A stretch of DNA of 64,000 bases. It comes from Crenobacter oryzisoli (GTDB lineage: Bacteria; Pseudomonadota; Gammaproteobacteria; Burkholderiales; Chromobacteriaceae). The notes under the pieces were generated by a model that saw only the letters and a list, made by a program, of their open reading frames with translations, made no database searches and was not told where the DNA came from. Location: contig NZ_JAUEDK010000009.1 of assembly GCF_030385785.1 (NCBI RefSeq), positions 1-64,000 of the forward strand. The letters run 5' to 3'. The position numbers were made by a program, and so were the translations under genes. Below are positions 1-7,231 of this stretch, piece after piece (the stretch's first letter is position 1; each line of letters opens with the position of its first letter).

Positions 1-1
1 G

Positions 2-289
2 TTTGTGATCGTCGATGGCCATCCGATCCACAAGGCGAAGCTGGTCAGGGACTATGTGGAGAGCTTGGAAGGCAAGCTCAACCTGTTCTACTTGCCGCCT
101 TACTCGCCGCAACTGAATCCGGACGAGCAGGTCTGGGCGCACGTGAAGCGCCAGGTATCAAAGCGTCTGGTGCAAAACCATGAGGAAATGAAGCGGCTAG
201 CAATCGGCGCCTTGCGTCGAATCCAAAAGCTACCCGGGCTGGTGAAATCGTTCTTCCGCCAGCCTGAGTGCCAATATGCCTGCCAGTGA
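2..289 (+). CDS. IS630-family transposase, C-terminal part (5' end outside window)
   Basis: The reading frame is open from the first bases of the window, so the gene begins upstream and only about 95 C-terminal residues are visible. They match the end of the DDE catalytic domain of IS630-type transposases: VDGHPIH carries the second Asp and PPYSPQLNPDEQVW carries the catalytic Glu, about 35 residues apart, followed by the usual basic tail (HVKRQV). It would cut and join DNA at TA targets. Whether the element is intact cannot be judged. No clean IS630 terminal repeat was recognised after the stop. It sits at the outer edge of the accessory segment next to glmS. Confidence 0.85.
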   Translation, partial: FVIVDGHPIHKAKLVRDYVESLEGKLNLFYLPPYSPQLNPDEQVWAHVKRQVSKRLVQNHEEMKRLAIGALRRIQKLPGLVKSFFRQPECQYACQ

Positions 290-666
290 CAATACTTTTG
301 CAAAGCTTAGTATATTCATTAAATGGCTTATTACCTCGCCTCGTGACAGGCTTTATTGTTTCCGATTGATGAATGGCAAAAATGTCCGCACTATGCATTT
401 ATGAAAAATCAATAGGTTGCGGCAACTACTCATCCTCGGTAAGTTTGCACTCTCTGGGGACAGATGCACTTCACAGTTACAAATTTGTTTGCACTCAGCA
501 TTTCTTCTCTCCCCTCCCGAGCCCGCCAACATACCAAAGACATATTATCAACACATAGCCAATCGCCCGAGATCCGACACTTAGCTTCCCTCTGCGCCAA
601 ACAGGCTGTTGAGAGGCACGACCATCTGCCTCCTCCTTGCCGAATACTTCTGTGCCACCAAGACAA
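290..666. other. Intergenic region without a recognisable gene
   Basis: This stretch of about 380 bp lies between the transposase stop and the terminator of the leftward transporter gene. It is more AT-rich than the chromosomal backbone. The only structured element I see is the 17-bp repeat at 343-359, shared with the glmS-proximal transposon-like end. A weak repeat of gtttgcactc occurs at 442-451 and 487-496. The open frames here are short and without family resemblance. Confidence 0.6.
343..359 (+). repeat. Third copy of the Tn7-like end repeat
   Basis: The sequence gtgacaggctttattgt differs at two positions from gtaacagactttattgt at 5353-5369 and is in the same orientation. The identity extends on both sides: tcgt before and ttccgat after, giving 26 bases (341-366) with two mismatches against 5351-5376. 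Placed 5 kb apart, the two copies bracket the whole accessory segment. This could be an internal TnsB-like site or the end of an older, stacked insertion. Confidence 0.6.
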
Positions 667-698
667 ACCGCCCCCCGGTCTGGACCGGCAGGGCGGTG
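667..698 (-). terminator. Rho-independent terminator of the CynX-like transporter operon
   Basis: Read leftwards, the arms ACCGCCC and GGGCGGT enclose an inner CCGGTC-CA-GACCGG hairpin. They are followed by TTTGTCTT. It lies about 30 bp past the transporter stop codon. Confidence 0.65.
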
Positions 699-728
699 AC
701 ATGAATCAACCAGAAGCGCCGCGTGGCA

Positions 729-1955
729 TCAGGCCGGCTTTGGCTCACCCACTTGAATTTCAGCCAGATCCTGCTGAAAACGCTGGTAGCTGGCCGGCGA
801 GAAACGTATTGCTAGTACCAGCATGCCCAGACTGGCAATGGTCATCAGCAACCAGATGTAGGACAGATCATTGAATGCATCACGCAGGCTACCGGCGGTC
901 AGCGGGACCAAGCTGGCAATGATGAAGCCCCCCCCTTGTACGAAGGCAGTAAAGTTTCCGGCCAGGGTCGGGTCTTTCAGGTGGTCCATGGCGACGATGA
1001 TGGATAGTGGGAACAAGAGACCTATGCTGACGCCCAGCAGCGATACGGCAATGTAAGGTGCCTGCAGTGGCGCAACAATCAACATCACGTAGCTCGCGGC
1101 GACTAGCAGCAGCGAGGTAGCCAGCAAGCCACGACGATCGGGGAAGCGGCCAATGACAAGCGACAGCCACAGCGCGGTCAACGCCTCGACAATGGTCAGC
1201 ACCGACAGCAGTAGCCCGGCCGTACCCTTGGCCAGTCCCAGACCGATGTAGAACGGCGAGATCCACGCCATGGCCAGCATGAAGGCGCCGGTGCCGATGC
1301 CGAAGAAAAGTAGCAACGACCAGCAGCGACCAATGCGCCAGAACGGTGCGCTTCGGGCGGTTACTTGTACGCTGCTGCGGCCCTCGTACTGGCTTCGGCG
1401 CGATGCCAGCAGCCAGTACACGGTGGCGGCTACGGCCGGCAGCGACCAGCTGGCCAGGGTGGACAACCAGCCGAACTGGTCTTCGAGCCAGGAAGCGGTA
1501 CCGGAACCAATGGCGGCTCCCACCACGATGCTGTTGGAGTACAGTGCGATGACGCTGCTGGTACTGGCGCCGAAATTGCGCTTGATGAAGCCCGGCAGTA
1601 GCGCCTGGATCACGGCGATGCCCAGCCCTACCAGGGCGGCGCTGGTGAACAGACCATAACTGTTATCGGTCCACAAACGCATCAGGCAAGCGATGGCGAT
1701 GACGGCGCCACCAATGGCAATACCGCCTCCCTCACCCAGTGCCTGGCGGATACGCCCGGCATAGATGGCACCCAACCCCATCATCAAGACCGGGATGGAA
1801 GTCAGCAGGCTGATTCCTACCGATTTGACCCCGGCAAATTGGCTGATGGACTGAACCAGAGGACCAATGGCGGCGATGGCCGGTCTTAGGTTAAGCGACA
1901 GTAGCAGGATAGCAAGCAAGAGGAGGATGCCTGCCGGCTTGGCATGTTGACTCAT
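729..1955 (-). CDS. MFS transporter, CynX/NimT family
   Basis: This is a 408-residue polytopic inner-membrane protein with about 12 hydrophobic segments, the standard size for a major facilitator. The N-terminal segment LNLRPAIAAIGPL is the signature of the CynX/NimT/YeaN branch (cyanate and 2-nitroimidazole transporters). The substrate here cannot be predicted; export or uptake of a small organic compound is likely. The start has AGGA upstream. It is the last gene of a leftward group after the tautomerase (2021-2251) and a small unknown frame (2267-2551), so the three may serve one catabolic or detoxification function under the divergent control region near 2560. Confidence 0.8.
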   Translation of the reverse strand: MSQHAKPAGILLLLAILLLSLNLRPAIAAIGPLVQSISQFAGVKSVGISLLTSIPVLMMGLGAIYAGRIRQALGEGGGIAIGGAVIAIACLMRLWTDNSYGLFTSAALVGLGIAVIQALLPGFIKRNFGASTSSVIALYSNSIVVGAAIGSGTASWLEDQFGWLSTLASWSLPAVAATVYWLLASRRSQYEGRSSVQVTARSAPFWRIGRCWSLLLFFGIGTGAFMLAMAWISPFYIGLGLAKGTAGLLLSVLTIVEALTALWLSLVIGRFPDRRGLLATSLLLVAASYVMLIVAPLQAPYIAVSLLGVSIGLLFPLSIIVAMDHLKDPTLAGNFTAFVQGGGFIIASLVPLTAGSLRDAFNDLSYIWLLMTIASLGMLVLAIRFSPASYQRFQQDLAEIQVGEPKPA

Positions 1956-2020
1956 GACAATTCCTGTTCAAGCAGTGGGTGATCGGCCCGGCTGCTGCAA
2001 GGCGACCGGGCGAGGGTGAA

Positions 2021-2251
2021 TCAATAGGTGTAATCGGGCCGTCTCAGCAGATCCGTCATGCGCGGGACGATCAGCGCCTGGTAGACCTGCTGCTGCCACA
2101 GCGCCGGTTCAACCGGCTGCAGATCGACCGACACGGCCCCGGTAGGGCATGACAGTTCCTGTTGCAGCAACTGCGTGAGCGATTGCTGGATGCGCTCCAG
2201 GTTGGCCGCAGGGATGTCGGCCTTGAAGCAATGGATGACGACATGTGGCAT
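2021..2251 (-). CDS. Tautomerase, PptA-like (4-oxalocrotonate tautomerase superfamily)
   Basis: This is a 76-residue protein beginning Met-Pro, so Pro1 becomes the catalytic N-terminal base after Met removal, as in all tautomerases of this superfamily. MPHVVIHCF, the central SVDLQPVEPALWQQQVY and the C-terminal RPDYTY closely follow E. coli PptA (YdcE; MPHIDIKCF ... KKPGYSM). It would interconvert keto and enol forms of a small aromatic or dicarboxylic substrate in the cytoplasm. It lies 15 bp after the upstream frame and 65 bp before the transporter, probably co-transcribed. The natural substrate is unknown. Confidence 0.82.
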   Translation of the reverse strand: MPHVVIHCFKADIPAANLERIQQSLTQLLQQELSCPTGAVSVDLQPVEPALWQQQVYQALIVPRMTDLLRRPDYTY

Positions 2252-2266
2252 GAGGAGCTCCAGGGT

Positions 2267-2551
2267 TCAGCTCAGTCCAGCGGACTGCATGGCGGCAATG
2301 CCTTCCGGCTTCAGCACGTTGTAATGGCCCACCGCCAGATCGTGCCAGCAGATGTCGAGACCGGCCCGGATGCCCTCCGCGATGAAGGACTCGCCATCAC
2401 CACGAGCCCGCCAAACCAAGATGGCGCAGCGCAGGGGCTTGTCGGCCAGGGTAATCTGGTAATCCGGTGAGTAGATCACGTGGCCTCGATCAGAATGCGA
2501 CCAGCCAAGCCAAAAATGCCAAATGGGTTGACCGCAAATGAGCGGCATCAT
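2267..2551 (-). CDS. Small unknown protein, possible thioesterase C-terminal remnant
   Basis: This 94-residue frame is immediately upstream of the tautomerase. I do not recognise it with confidence. Its second half (PLRCAILVWRARGDG ... ICWHDLAVGHYNVLKPEGI) resembles the last quarter of the thioesterase domains that end peptide synthetases: a strand, then a Trp, then GxHYxxLxxP, which holds the catalytic His. The nucleophile Ser region is absent, so if related it is a remnant. No Shine-Dalgarno is visible for the ATG at 2551. A GTG near 2479 with GAGG in front is an alternative start. A phosphopantetheinyl transferase lies 1.1 kb away. Confidence 0.4.
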   Translation of the reverse strand: MMPLICGQPIWHFWLGWSHSDRGHVIYSPDYQITLADKPLRCAILVWRARGDGESFIAEGIRAGLDICWHDLAVGHYNVLKPEGIAAMQSAGLS

Positions 2552-2560
2552 ACAGTGACT

Positions 2561-2574
2561 GGAATGATCATTCC
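2561..2574. promoter_or_regulatory. Perfect palindrome, candidate operator
   Basis: GGAATGATCATTCC is a perfect 14-bp palindrome 10 bp upstream of the leftward operon start and in the divergent region shared with the reductase at 2752. A second copy of its first ten bases (GGAATGATCA) lies at 2644-2653. Such spacing fits a dimeric regulator; the TetR-type protein at 4550 is a candidate. Confidence 0.45.
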
Positions 2575-2643
2575 AAATTAATTATTCATTTTGCATTTTT
2601 GCTCGCAAAACCACAGAGCATGGACTCATGGTCTGAAACGATC

Positions 2644-2653
2644 GGAATGATCA
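2644..2653. repeat. Second copy of GGAATGATCA operator-like element
   Basis: GGAATGATCA is followed by GGAAT rather than TTCC, so it is a half-perfect match to the palindrome at 2561-2574, 83 bp away. It lies about 100 bp upstream of the reductase start. Confidence 0.35.
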
Positions 2654-2751
2654 GGAATAAAGACATGCCAGCTCCGGCTGGCCTATCAGGCCGCGGATGC
2701 ACTCACAAAAGCGTCGGTTCATCACCGGCAAGACAGATCAAGGACATCACA

Positions 2752-3630
2752 ATGAACAGCACAATCCCCACCACCGTTGCAGTGTTGGGTACGGGCCTGA
2801 TTGGCGCGCCAGTAGCGCGCAATCTGGCAAACAAGGGATTCAAGGTGAAGGTATGGAACCGCACGGCGGCCAAGGCGCAGGCGATCGAGCAGGACAATCT
2901 GCAGGCCTGCGCCAGCGTGGCTGAGGCCGTCAGCGATGCCAGCTACATCGTGACTGTGCTGAAAGACGGCGACAGCGTCGCTTCGGCCATGGCGGCCGGC
3001 AGTGGGCATTTTCTGCCGGGTGCCAAATGGATACAGCTCAGTACGGTGGGGATCGACGCCAGCGTCAGCCTGGCCAGCCTGGCCCTGCAGCAGCAACTGG
3101 TGTACTTCGATGCGCCGGTGCAAGGGACACGTCAACCTGCCGAGCAAGGCCAGCTGATCATTCTGGCAGCCGGACCGCTGACTGAGCGGGAAGCGGTGCA
3201 GCCCTTGTTTGACGCCATCGGCAAACGCACACTTTGGGTAGCCGACAATGCCGGTCAGGCGAGCCGGTTGAAGCTGGCCCTGAACAACTGGGCATTTGCC
3301 CTGACGCATGGGCTGGCAGAGAGCCTGGCTCTGGCCAAAGGTCTGGGAGTAGACCCGGCACTGGTCGTCGACGTGGTCAGCAACGGGCCAATGGATTGTG
3401 CCTATTTCCAGCTCAAGAGCGCAGCCATTCTGGCAGACAACTACACTCCAAGCTTTACGGTTGCCAACGCGGTGAAGGACGGCAAACTCATCGTCGAGGC
3501 TGCTCGCCAGGCAGGTGTGCAGGCCAATGTGGCTGCCGCCGGATTACAACGCTTTGAACGAGCCCTTGCCGCCGGCCATGGTGACAAAGACATGGCCGCC
3601 AGCTTCCTAGCGTCAGACTCCCCTATCTGA
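2752..3630 (+). CDS. NAD(P)-dependent oxidoreductase, beta-hydroxyacid dehydrogenase / 6PGDH-like family
   Basis: This is a 292-residue protein. The N-terminal Rossmann motif VLGTGLIGAPVARNLANKG (about residues 8-26) fits the family, and VWNRTAAKAQAI with an Arg after the second strand suggests NADPH preference. The helical C-terminal domain carries the conserved KLALNNW region with the catalytic Lys. Relatives reduce or oxidise 3-hydroxyisobutyrate, tartronate semialdehyde or succinic semialdehyde, or act as imine reductases; the substrate is not predictable. The start at 2752 was chosen because AAGGA precedes it and the Rossmann fold begins right after; the frame is open further upstream. 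It is divergent from the tautomerase-transporter group. Confidence 0.8.
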   Translation: MNSTIPTTVAVLGTGLIGAPVARNLANKGFKVKVWNRTAAKAQAIEQDNLQACASVAEAVSDASYIVTVLKDGDSVASAMAAGSGHFLPGAKWIQLSTVGIDASVSLASLALQQQLVYFDAPVQGTRQPAEQGQLIILAAGPLTEREAVQPLFDAIGKRTLWVADNAGQASRLKLALNNWAFALTHGLAESLALAKGLGVDPALVVDVVSNGPMDCAYFQLKSAAILADNYTPSFTVANAVKDGKLIVEAARQAGVQANVAAAGLQRFERALAAGHGDKDMAASFLASDSPI

Positions 3631-3646
3631 CCATCGCCTGCTAGTG

Positions 3647-4465
3647 TCAGGGAGTCCACCACCCACGGCCACGCAGATCGACCGAGGTGTATACGCTGCC
3701 CGCTGCAAAGGCAAAATTCACCTCGAACGGCTGAACCCGGTGTTGCCATTCACTGCGAGATGCCGGTGCCAGCCATAGGCGGCCTGCATCCCGTTCCAGC
3801 AGGCAGACTTCGAATTCGGTGAAATCAACGACGCGGCCCAGGCGGTAAGACATGGCCTTGTAGCCGGCCTCTTTGGCCGAAAAGATCAGCGTGGCTACGG
3901 CGGACAGCGCCTCCCGAGGCAAGTACGCACGATCTGCGGCGGTACAGCAGACAGCCAGAATACTGTCCAGCTGATCACCGGTGGCCAGCGGTTCGCAATC
4001 CAGCCCCAGCTCGCCAGGTTCCGCACTGAATGCCACCACTGCTGCAGCTAGATCAGGGCTATGGGTAATGGCCCCCGTGACACCGTCAGGCCACCGGGGC
4101 ATACCAGCTGCATCGCGTCCAACCACCGCGCCATGCATATGCAGGCTGGCCAACGCCTGTTCAGCACACAAACGACCGGCCAGGAAAGATACCTGCCGGG
4201 ACCGGACTACCCTTGCGGGAATCGCAGGGTGCAGGCTGGCGGGCGTAATATCCCCCAGCAAAGCATCCAGCGCCGGCAGCGACAAGGCCGCGATCGCCAC
4301 CTTGCCCATCTGCAGTGGCCACGGTCGCCACAATGCGGCCAGGCTGTTGGTCGCCTCTATGCCCCGGATAGACAGCCCATGCAGCAGCGCGGGCAGCACG
4401 CCCGCCTGCTCAACATCGCTTAACATGCTGTGATAGCCTTTAGCGCTTGCAGACATGCCGGGCAT
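3647..4465 (-). CDS. 4'-phosphopantetheinyl transferase, EntD/Sfp superfamily
   Basis: This 272-residue enzyme would transfer phosphopantetheine from CoA to a Ser of carrier proteins (peptide or polyketide synthetases, or acyl carrier proteins). EntD-type motifs occur in order: GRLCAEQAL, PRWPDGVTGAITHS, LGLDCEP (Mg-binding Asp and Glu) and FSAKEAGYKA (the second acidic/Lys motif). No synthetase is encoded in this window, so its clients are elsewhere or lost. It converges on the reductase gene. Starts at 4465, 4456 or 4426 are possible; 4426 has AAAGG in front, so the N-terminus may be 13 residues shorter. It is divergent from the TetR gene at 4550. Confidence 0.82.
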   Translation of the reverse strand: MPGMSASAKGYHSMLSDVEQAGVLPALLHGLSIRGIEATNSLAALWRPWPLQMGKVAIAALSLPALDALLGDITPASLHPAIPARVVRSRQVSFLAGRLCAEQALASLHMHGAVVGRDAAGMPRWPDGVTGAITHSPDLAAAVVAFSAEPGELGLDCEPLATGDQLDSILAVCCTAADRAYLPREALSAVATLIFSAKEAGYKAMSYRLGRVVDFTEFEVCLLERDAGRLWLAPASRSEWQHRVQPFEVNFAFAAGSVYTSVDLRGRGWWTP

Positions 4466-4549
4466 ACTAACAGAGCATCAGCCAGCTCTCCCGTGGCCGA
4501 ACGGACCAGCGATGATGTCAACGCCACCCTCTCTCATTTGCCGATTACT

Positions 4550-5131
4550 ATGCATACCCCTCATTTTCATCCCGACGACGCAGCCGACGCGGCCATGCGC
4601 ATTTTCTGGCAAAAAGGCTATGCTGCCACGTCGATCCAGGATTTGGTCGAGGGAACCGGCCTGTCGCGCAGCAGCCTATACAACACCTTTGAGAGCAAAC
4701 ACGGCCTGTTTCAGCACGCCTTGCGCCGTTACCACGGGCAGACTGCGGCCAACGTCGCCCTGCTGGCTGAAGATGGCTCTGCCGTAGCTCGCGTGCGCGC
4801 TCTGTTGCAGCAGATCGTCACGAATGAACTGACCGACACATCCTGTTGCGGCTGCCTGGTGGCTAATACTGCACTGGAACTGGGTGGGCGCGACAGCATA
4901 GTGACCAGCTTGCTGGGCGAGCACTTCACTATCCTGGAGACCGCCCTTATCGCCCTGATGCAACGAGGGCAGCAACAGGGGGAAATCGCCTCAGAGAAAT
5001 CGCCCATCGCCTTGGCGCGTTTCATCGTGGCTACCATTCAGGGCCTGCGCGTGCTGGGCCGGGGCTATAGCGGAGCCGAACAGCCGCAGCGCCTGAACGA
5101 CGTCATCGATATCGCCCTTGCCTCCCTGTAA
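4550..5131 (+). CDS. TetR/AcrR-family transcriptional regulator
   Basis: This is a 193-residue regulator. Residues about 8-50 form the N-terminal helix-turn-helix (AAMRIFWQKGYAATSIQDLVEGTGLSRSSLYNTF, split here as the typical ATSIQDLVEGTGLS plus SSLYNTFESKHGLF). The remainder is the helical ligand-binding and dimer domain. A Cys-rich spot (TSCCGCLVAN) near the ligand domain start is common in the group that includes regulators of MFS pumps and reductases. It is divergent from the phosphopantetheinyl transferase by 84 bp and may control that gene, the divergent operons at 2.5 kb, or itself. The upstream open frame to 4430 has no start signal. Confidence 0.85.
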   Translation: MHTPHFHPDDAADAAMRIFWQKGYAATSIQDLVEGTGLSRSSLYNTFESKHGLFQHALRRYHGQTAANVALLAEDGSAVARVRALLQQIVTNELTDTSCCGCLVANTALELGGRDSIVTSLLGEHFTILETALIALMQRGQQQGEIASEKSPIALARFIVATIQGLRVLGRGYSGAEQPQRLNDVIDIALASL

Positions 5132-5151
5132 ACCGAAGGCATACAGAAATT

Positions 5152-5180
5152 TGGACTGCCCCTAGAACGATGGACACTCC
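5152..5180 (+). mobile_element. Possible IS3-family terminal remnant
   Basis: tggactgcccct ... atggacactcc resembles the outer ends of IS3/IS150-group elements (TGxACTGCCCC ... TGGACACT). It is followed by a short interrupted frame and then the terminator at 5283. No transposase is present, so at most it is a relic. Confidence 0.3.
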
Positions 5181-5282
5181 ACTTCTTGGAGAGAAAGTAG
5201 CCTTTTTCTGCCCAAGGCAGAAATGGTGAGTTTGGCCAATACATTGCCTGAAGGATAGAAAGGCGGCAGTAACTCATATATG

Positions 5283-5317
5283 AAGCGAAAAGAGGCCCTA
5301 GGGCCTCTTCGCTTTTC
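5283..5317. terminator. Bidirectional terminator between TetR gene and glmS
   Basis: The perfect 18-bp palindrome AGAGGCCCTAGGGCCTCT is flanked by aagcgaa and tcgctttt. Read leftwards it ends in CTCTTTTCGCTT, fitting glmS. Read rightwards the longer arms end in CGCTTTTC, fitting the regulator gene. If the glmS-proximal transposon-like end is real, glmS transcription now runs through it to this terminator. Confidence 0.65.
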
Positions 5318-5332
5318 TAGCATGACTAGCGG

Positions 5333-5380
5333 ATGACAGACTTCATTGTCTCGTAACAGACTTTATTGTTTCCGATCACA
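5333..5380 (-). mobile_element. Putative Tn7-like transposon terminus at the attTn7 position
   Basis: Reading away from glmS, the sequence starts TGTGATCGG 21 bp after the glmS stop codon. It then carries two direct repeats, ACAATAAAGTCTGTTAC (5369-5353) and ACAATGAAGTCTGTCAT (5349-5333), in exact 20-bp phase. Tn7 ends also begin TGTG, carry repeated TnsB sites of about 20 bp starting GACAAAATAG, and insert 20-25 bp past glmS. No tns gene is visible within the 5.3 kb to the left, so the element is larger than the window, defective or non-autonomous. This is an inference from position and pattern. Confidence 0.55.
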
Positions 5381-5401
5381 AGTCATGAACCTAGCCGGTG
5401 C

Positions 5402-7231
5402 TTACTCGACCGTCACCGATTTAGCCAAGTTGCGCGGCTTGTCCACGTCGGTACCGCGCGCCAGTGCGGCGTGGTAGGCGAGAATCTGTACCGGGATCGC
5501 GTGTACCACCGGGCTCAGCACACCAACGTGGCGCGGAGTGCGGATCACGTGCACCCCTTCCGACTCGCTGAAGTGGCTGTCGGCATCGGCGAACACGAAC
5601 AGCTCGCCGCCGCGCGCACGCACTTCTTGCATGTTCGACTTCACCTTTTCCAGCAGGCTGTCGTTCGGTGCGATCACTACCACCGGCATCGCACTGTCGA
5701 CCAGCGCCAACGGACCGTGCTTCAGTTCGCCGGCCGGGTACGCCTCGGCGTGGATATAGCTGATTTCCTTCAGCTTCAGCGCGCCCTCCAGCGCGATCGG
5801 ATAGTGCAGGCCGCGACCGAGGAACAGCGCGTGGTCCTTGGCGGCAAACTTGTCGGCCCAAGCCTTGATCTGCGGCTCCAGGTTCAGCGCATGCTGCACG
5901 CTGCCCGGCAGGTGGCGCAGGTCGTCGAGATAGCCGGCCTCCTGTTCGGCCGACACACGGCCGCGTACCTTACCCAGCGTCACCGCCAGCGTGAACAGCG
6001 CCACCAGTTGGGTGGTGAACGCCTTGGTCGAGGCAACGCCGATTTCGGCGCCGGCACGAGTGTAGAACACCAGTTCCGATGCACGTGGAATCGCCGACTC
6101 ACGCACGTTGCAGATCGACAGCGCGTACTGGTGGCCGCGCTCCTTGGCGTACTTTAGCGCCTCCATGGTGTCGAGCGTCTCGCCCGACTGCGAGATGGTC
6201 ACCACCAAGTGCTGTGGGTCGGCCCAGGCGTTGCGGTAGCGGTATTCACTGGCGATCTCGACATCGCACTGCACGCCGGCGATGCTCTCGATCCAGTACT
6301 TGGCAGTCAGGCCGGCGTAGTAGCTGGTGCCGCAGGCAATGATTTTCACGCCGGTCAGCTTGGGCAGCAGCGCCTCGGCGTTCTCTCCGAACAGCTGCAT
6401 CGCGAAGCCGGCGTCGAGCACCGCCTCGATGGTGTCGGACAGCGCCTTCGGCTGCTCGTAGATTTCCTTCTGCATGAAGTGGCTGTACGGACCCAGCTCC
6501 AGCGATGCGAGCGACACGTCGGACAGGTGCACCTCGCGCTCGACGACCGCGTCATGCTTGTCGACGATAACGACGCTGTCGCGACGCAGATGACCGATGT
6601 CGCCCTCTTCCAGGAAGATCACCTTGCGGGTGGCCGACAGAATCGCCGACACGTCCGAGGCGATGAAATTCTCGCCCTCGCCCAGGCCGATCAAGAGCGG
6701 ACAGCCCATGCGCGCGCAGACCAGCTCGTCCGGACGGTCCAGCGCGATCACGCCGATCGCGTAAGCGCCGGTCAGCTCGCGCACCGCACGGCGCACCGCC
6801 TCGAACAGGTCGGGGGCATTCTGGTAATGGTGGTGAACGAGATGCGCGATCACTTCGGTATCGGTCTGCGACTCGAAGGTGTAGCCGAGCCCCCTCAGAT
6901 GCTCGCGCTGTTCCTCGTGGTTCTCGATGATGCCGTTGTGCACCACCGCAATCAGGCCGTGCGACACGTGCGGGTGGGCGTTCGGCTCGGTCACGCCGCC
7001 GTGCGTCGCCCAGCGGGTGTGGCCGATGCCGAGCTGGCCGTGCAGCTGCTCGGCGGCCGCCGCCTGCTCCATTTCGGCGACGCGACCGACCCTGCGCACC
7101 CGGCGGATCTTGTCGCCGTCCAGCACGGCCACACCGGCCGAATCATAACCCCGGTACTCGAGGCGCTTGAGGCCGTCTACCAGAACCGGAACGATATCGC
7201 GCTTGGCGATGGCGCCAACGATGCCGCACAT
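5402..7231 (-). CDS. glmS: Glutamine-fructose-6-phosphate aminotransferase (isomerizing)
   Basis: This 609-residue cytosolic enzyme makes glucosamine-6-phosphate from fructose-6-phosphate and glutamine, the first step to UDP-GlcNAc. The start MCGIVGAIA places Cys2 as the N-terminal nucleophile of the class II amidotransferase domain (about 1-220, with HTRWATHG). Two SIS sugar-isomerase domains follow ([22 protein letters not shown] at the C-terminus). The start at 7231 is preceded by AAGGAG and overlaps the stop of the DeoR gene by one base, so the two genes are translationally coupled. Its 3' end is the Tn7 target in bacteria, and here an accessory segment abuts it. Confidence 0.97.

Follow-up and report, generated by a model that had tools for sequence, protein, structure and literature searches.

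Known Tn7-like systems and the glmS attachment site

Arrays of sites of about 20 bp are described as a general property of Tn7-like elements, and several ends at one locus can arise when such elements insert next to or within one another (PMC8649781). Insertion of Tn7 itself about 20 bp past the glmS stop codon is described in PMC2918618. In the account given in PMC11406308, the right-end sites of Tn7 overlap, the left-end sites are spaced, and the element shows target immunity. Tn7-like loci with a dual tniQ-tnsD arrangement have also been described (PMC10293859). Literature searches on Tn7-like elements combined with Chromobacterium or with Vogesella found no paper in the collection searched.

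The DNA analyzed here, referred to as the window, is a stretch of 64,000 nucleotides from Crenobacter oryzisoli (Chromobacteriaceae). It was compared with 60 related genomes, and the transposon ends found past glmS were sorted by eye into several types: type A is that of the window beside glmS, type B is represented by GAATAAAGTTCGTCGG, and type D by TGACAAATATGTTTGCACT. The locus is very probably a collapsed Tn7-like island, in which a glmS-homing type A end at 5331-5378 stands beside stacked type A and type D insertions whose middle was later lost.

The type A end beside glmS

The features on the glmS side of the locus are as follows.

5402-7231, minus strand: glmS, the attachment-site gene (open frame; full-length family matches 82-95% identical; stop codon at 5402-5404)
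5379-5383, minus strand: flank ACTTG, candidate 4-5 bp duplicated target (compare CTTG/ACTTG in G080 and CTAG/ACTAG in G033)
5331-5378, minus strand: glmS-proximal end of a type A Tn7-like element (profile of relatives, 20-bp phase, same glmS spacing as in relatives)
5353-5367 and 5333-5347, minus strand: two phased putative TnsB sites of the type A end

Read away from glmS on the minus strand, TGTGATCGG (5380-5372) starts 21 bp past the stop codon and is followed by two 17-bp repeats, ACAATAAAGTCTGTTAC (5369-5353) and ACAATGAAGTCTGTCAT (5349-5333), in a phase of exactly 20 bp. This arrangement had been noticed in the original prediction, and it held when the coordinates were re-read and when the window was searched on both strands with a type A right-end profile (48 columns, built from eight ends of relatives with the window sequence excluded). 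The interval 5331-5378 (minus strand) ranked first with 63.4 bits, followed by 321-368 (minus strand) with 29.3 bits; sites elsewhere in the window, not overlapping these two, scored at most 8.3 bits. The element had been predicted to start at TGTG. Comparison with relatives places the terminus two bases further in, at TGATCGG (5378), which is 23 bp past the stop codon. On sequence grounds, 5331-5378 is the end of a glmS-homing Tn7-like transposon. The prediction of such an end at the glmS attachment site was borne out: in the relatives G033 and G080, the same end belongs to elements that have an inverted left end and carry tnsABC, tnsD and tniQ.

The degenerate 16-mer ACAATRAAGTCTGTYA has two exact matches in the 4.93-Mb assembly, both of them the glmS-side repeats. 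One further site appears with one mismatch (window 344-359) and one with two mismatches (contig C31), and these are the only type-A-like sites elsewhere in the assembly at up to two mismatches. At up to three mismatches, 42 genome matches were obtained versus 38 for the reversed control, so that only the best matches are meaningful. The C31 locus (C31:79618-79768, L012:13618-13768) holds a diverged glmS-side end with a hairpin, 75% identical over about 150 bp. It stands apart from glmS, flanked by pntB and a gene for a LuxR/MalT-like regulator (both named by eye from translations).

Type A elements in relatives

Complete type A elements are found in two relatives. In G033, a type A end at the same glmS spacing has an inverted copy 30.8 kb away, and in G080 (Vogesella oryzae, locus L135, Chromobacteriaceae) the inverted copy lies 27.2 kb away. 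The flanks of the two elements share CTAG and CTTG, respectively, and the fifth base, A, could be part of the duplication or of the left terminus. Both elements (27-31 kb) encode homologues of TnsA, TnsB, TnsC, TnsD and TniQ. The TnsD of G033 matches Pfam PF15978 (1.9e-38). When TnsA, TnsB and TnsC of G033 were scanned as single sequences (TnsB by the last 468 of its 675 residues), Pfam recognized none of them at 1e-3, and their NCBIfam matches were all weak and unrelated. When homologues were combined into profiles, Tn7 proteins in the PDB were reached at 1e-10 for TnsA (15 sequences), 6.5e-9 for TnsB (3 sequences) and 1.8e-4 for TnsC (12 sequences), the last also matching V. cholerae TnsC at 4.1e-5. 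An AlphaFold2 model of the TnsA homologue of Pseudomonas fluorescens (mean pLDDT 89.9) found Tn7 TnsA as its best Foldseek matches (1.4e-12).

When named genomes were searched with the type A/B TnsB alignment, 19 loci emerged, among them loci in Vogesella, Trinickia and Pseudomonas. Of the 19, four (L139, L140, L147, L151) include the 3' end of glmS in the fetched DNA, and a phased array lies just past glmS in all four. The array of P. fluorescens (L140) starts with TGATCGTAAACATTAAAGTCTGTC, near the window's TGATCGGAAACAATAAAGTCTGT. With three Tns sets, at least 29 kb was followed in each of eight genomes whose type A or A-like end stands at glmS or close to it (G026, G029, G033, G063, G065, G067, G071, G080), and Tns matches were obtained in two, G033 and G080. 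Judged by such matches, type A ends without tns genes are common in relatives.

Several relatives carry more than one end at this site. Two type A ends stand 113 bp apart beside glmS in G026 (L033:3900-4150), each with a hairpin and with no body between them. In Vogesella oryzae (L106, L135), a type A element directly abuts a second type A end, and this same-lineage tandem stands despite the target immunity described for Tn7 (PMC11406308). A 3.7-kb type B mini-element adjoins the type A element of G033 (L032:15500-19300), and by eye its cargo resembles a NUDIX protein together with a phosphoribosyl-pyrophosphate synthase.

Family survey, type D elements and hybrid intervals

Used as a DNA query, 5200-5401 found matches in 8 of 61 genomes, the source genome counted. 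For the survey of repeats, the region within about 110 bp of the glmS stop was considered in 59 of the 61 genomes, with G064 (no glmS match) and G010 (partial match) dropped; the flank L048, a duplicate of L033, was also left out of the repeat count. A repeat of at least 13/17 at lags of 17-24 was present just past glmS in 36 of the 59 genomes, with a lag of exactly 20 in 33, whereas control windows further downstream gave 10/750 by the same criterion. Other family members, for example G009, G081, G082 and G084, have a terminator-like hairpin past glmS and no repeats. In the original prediction, repeats beside glmS in relatives without the window's accessory genes were to speak against a transposon end. 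Such relatives exist in part: those with other cargo carry the repeats, as is expected of transposon ends, and others are without repeats.

The type D lineage is represented with its transposition genes in G023, where tns genes lie between type D ends flanked by a perfect 5-bp duplication, GAAAA. Pfam identifies its TnsA (PF08722, 1e-19), its TnsC (by AAA and TniB domains) and two proteins of TniQ or TnsD type; its TnsB, unnamed by Pfam, is 28-31% identical to the TnsB of the C27 locus in the window's own genome. A 7.9-kb type D element with a perfect 5-bp duplication, GTTGT, lies at glmS in G001, a member of the window's genus. Of tns genes, it was found to keep just an initial piece of a TniQ (79% over 78 aa), inside the right end. 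The cargo of this element (L096) looks redox- or metal-related, with SCO1-, TlpA-, CcdA- and MerR-like proteins (named by eye).

Junctions from a left end to the next right end occur in G011, G033 and G080, so that repeated insertion beside glmS is part of the family history. Among the typed cases, the next left end past glmS matches the right end in six genomes (G001, G011, G013, G023, G033, G080), gives a hybrid in two (G000, G063) and is unclear in one (G015). The interval in G063, the second hybrid, is 8.7 kb long, with a type A right end on one side and a type B left end on the other.

The segment between the ends and its far side

The segment to the left of the type A end carries the following cargo.

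729-5131, both strands: cargo overall (open frames, Pfam)
729-1955, minus strand: MFS transporter
2021-2251 and 2267-2551, minus strand: two small proteins with no Pfam match
2752-3630, plus strand: NAD-binding dehydrogenase
3647-4465, minus strand: 4'-phosphopantetheinyl transferase
ending at 5131, plus strand: TetR regulator

Homologues of these cargo proteins were found in none of the 14 relative flanks searched. The Tns sets of G033, of G023 and of C27 gave no tblastn match in window 1-5404, and the type A left-end and type D right-end profiles found no end of their own kind in 500-5300. On the far side of the cargo, three features follow one another up to the start of the contig.

367-496, plus strand: type D left end (putative TnsB sites 374-393, 439-452 and 477-496; alignment with G001, G011 and G023)
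321-366, minus strand: decayed older type A end, abutting the type D end (right- and left-end profiles)
2-289, plus strand: partial IS630-type transposase (DDE_3), broken and running off the contig start (Pfam DDE_3, 5.7e-19)

The type D left-end profile, built from relatives only and run on both strands, scored 87.5 bits at 367-492 (plus strand), and the next best site in the window scored 11.8 bits. The end aligns with those of G001, G011 and G023 over three dispersed sites at conserved spacing, and the outer two sites (374 and 477 in the window) are 103 bp apart in all four. At up to three mismatches, this end is the only place in the genome where TGACAAATATGTTTGCACT matches, and the control has 0. 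The flank of the type D end is ATCGG, and it continues into the decayed type A end. This outer end is without its first bases, and the profiles identify it alike in either polarity, with 29.3 bits for the 48-column right-end profile (321-368) and 32.9 bits for the 56-column left-end profile (313-368). The first base of the window is also the first base of the contig, which starts 366 bp from the type D end and hides its outer side.

The original prediction had taken the left segment for a Tn7-like element or a derivative of one, to be recognized by an inverted copy of the repeats and a target duplication. The far end proved to be of a different lineage, and its flank, ATCGG, is no second ACTTG. 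No matching inverted type A end was found in the genome; the prediction had named this outcome as a refutation, yet the glmS-side end is real. A single intact element spanning 367-5378 is ruled out by this heterologous far end and the missing duplication.

Tns genes in the own genome

The tns genes had been expected either outside the window or lost. They are indeed absent beside the end, and they are not merely outside the window: with the type A/B TnsB profile, no close TnsB was found anywhere in the assembly, which is rated 100% complete. The only match was the TnsB of contig C27 (4.5e-8), whereas the positive controls G013, G033 and G080 all gave E 0. The TnsB of G023, used as a query, likewise found only the C27 TnsB (29% identity, E 1e-61). 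A search of the genome for type A TnsA, run without a control, gave no match. Since the genome holds no close type A/B TnsB and the C27 protein is only distant, the remnant in the window is probably unable to move, unless type D ends serve as substrates for the C27 proteins. The set on contig C27 (L010:17070-19998, L011:1-2904) is complete, with tnsABC and tniQ, and belongs to a further Tn7-like lineage; it lies downstream of an open frame of 1424 aa that is on the opposite strand.

Origin of the locus

In the favored account, a type A element would have inserted 23 bp past the glmS stop, with TnsD reading the 3' end of glmS and TnsB binding the phased sites of the type A end. The site would have been reused in order, first by the older type A element, then by the type D element, and last by the newest type A element beside glmS. 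The middle of the array would then have been lost, and with it the left end of type A, the right end of type D and the tns genes. Left in place would be glmS, the type A end, 5 kb with cargo, the type D left end, the old type A end and the IS630 remnant. In favor of this account are the end profiles, the intact type A and type D elements of relatives, the junctions in G011, G033 and G080, the hybrid interval of G063, the Tn7 matches of the type A TnsABC proteins and the arrays at four of the 19 TnsB loci. Several points count against it. The flank ATCGG puts the type D insertion a few bases farther from glmS than in G001, G011 and G023, and no deletion breakpoint was found in 500-5300. The outer type A end lacks its first bases and fits either polarity, the contig start hides the outer side of the type D end, and a distant TnsB is present on C27.

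Because the outer type A end (321-366) can be read in either polarity, inversion is a live alternative, although an unlikely one. The outer end would then be a left end, the junction at 366/367 would be left-to-left, and the array would have been rearranged by inversion and not by deletion alone. The end retains TAAGCC, positioned as in the left ends of the G033 and G080 type A elements, in keeping with its left-end profile score. However, it also retains CACGAGG and GAGGTAAT as in right ends, in keeping with its right-end score, and the readable junctions of G011, G033 and G080 run from a left end to a right end.

It is considerably less probable that 367-5378 is one mobile unit with one end from each lineage, which a transposase accepting both would move in one piece. 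The ends of types A and D are alike to the extent that the type A end receives 25.7 bits from the type D right-end profile (self scores 76-95), and hybrid intervals are seen twice, in G000 and G063. Nevertheless, the flanks ACTTG and ATCGG show no duplication, and the tns set of G023, which alone among the relatives has tns genes beside type D ends, is only about 23-28% identical, where aligned, to the type A sets of G033 and G080. The idea that the repeats serve glmS as a regulatory or terminator feature of the host and have nothing to do with transposition could draw on their presence beside glmS in many family members with different neighbors, together with the frequent hairpin, but it is ruled out almost entirely by the family members without repeats and the target duplications in G001 and G023, as well as by inverted copies 7.9 to 31 kb away, tns genes between ends, and close relatives of one genus that differ in end type (G000 type A, G001 type D).

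Terminator hairpins at the glmS-side ends

One more feature of the locus lies just inside the type A end.

5290-5309, no strand assigned: terminator-like hairpin AAGAGGCCCTAGGGCCTCTT, aligned with the type A hairpins of relatives

A terminator-like hairpin 40-170 nt past the glmS stop is present in 31 of 35 flanks with an array, which were picked by the authors (33 in which a lag-20 repeat reaches at least 13/17, and in addition G025 and G068 at 12/17), versus 8 of 470 background windows, a set that includes the duplicate L048. The hairpin is also present in 20 of the 24 flanks without a clear lag-20 array, a comparison list in which G020, G070 and G074 (lag 24) and all weaker flanks were placed; a glmS gene that normally has its own terminator would give this result. 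In G023, a native-looking terminator hairpin lies outside the element, past its far end and adjoining the duplication, and a different hairpin lies in the element's own end. From this arrangement we infer that the element brings a replacement terminator. It is quite possible, though tentative and read from the sequences, that in several Tn7-like lineages the glmS-side end has a terminator of its own close inside it, which would replace the displaced native one, and that orphan ends of decayed elements persist as a working glmS terminator for the host. Tn7 itself is said, in the title of a 1986 paper, to insert at the E. coli glmS terminator. Literature searches on terminators in such ends, at the level of result listings, found no paper.

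Significance and comparison with known systems

The glmS site of Chromobacteriaceae is a heavily used landing place, at which different Tn7-like lineages stack and fuse, and cargo stays fixed in the chromosome once the transposition genes are gone. The newer findings are TnsABC proteins diverged past single-sequence Pfam detection, for whose TnsABCD family end profiles are now given, and hairpins just inside most glmS-side ends. The latter lead to a testable idea, namely that the ends supply a replacement terminator for glmS, whose enzyme serves cell-wall sugar synthesis.

The locus in the window is a new instance of an already known kind, the collapsed Tn7-like island. As described for E. coli Tn7 (TnsABCD, attTn7), insertion lies about 20-25 bp past the glmS stop (PMC2918618, PMC11406308), phased TnsB-type sites of about 20 bp stand on the glmS side and spaced sites in the left end (both putative here), and homologues of TnsA, TnsB, TnsC and TnsD occur in relatives that share the window's end. 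Unlike Tn7, the window's end has only two clear sites and all tns genes of the window are gone, while the intact elements of G033 and G080 carry TniQ besides TnsD and have TnsA, TnsB and TnsC that single-sequence Pfam searches miss. Each of these two elements has one TnsD-type and one TniQ-type gene, which resembles the dual tniQ-tnsD loci as described in PMC10293859. The layout also resembles that of Tn7-like islands with several ends at one attachment site, where the ends are attributed to adjacent insertions (PMC8649781); in contrast to these, the ends in the window come from two lineages, with a hybrid segment between them.
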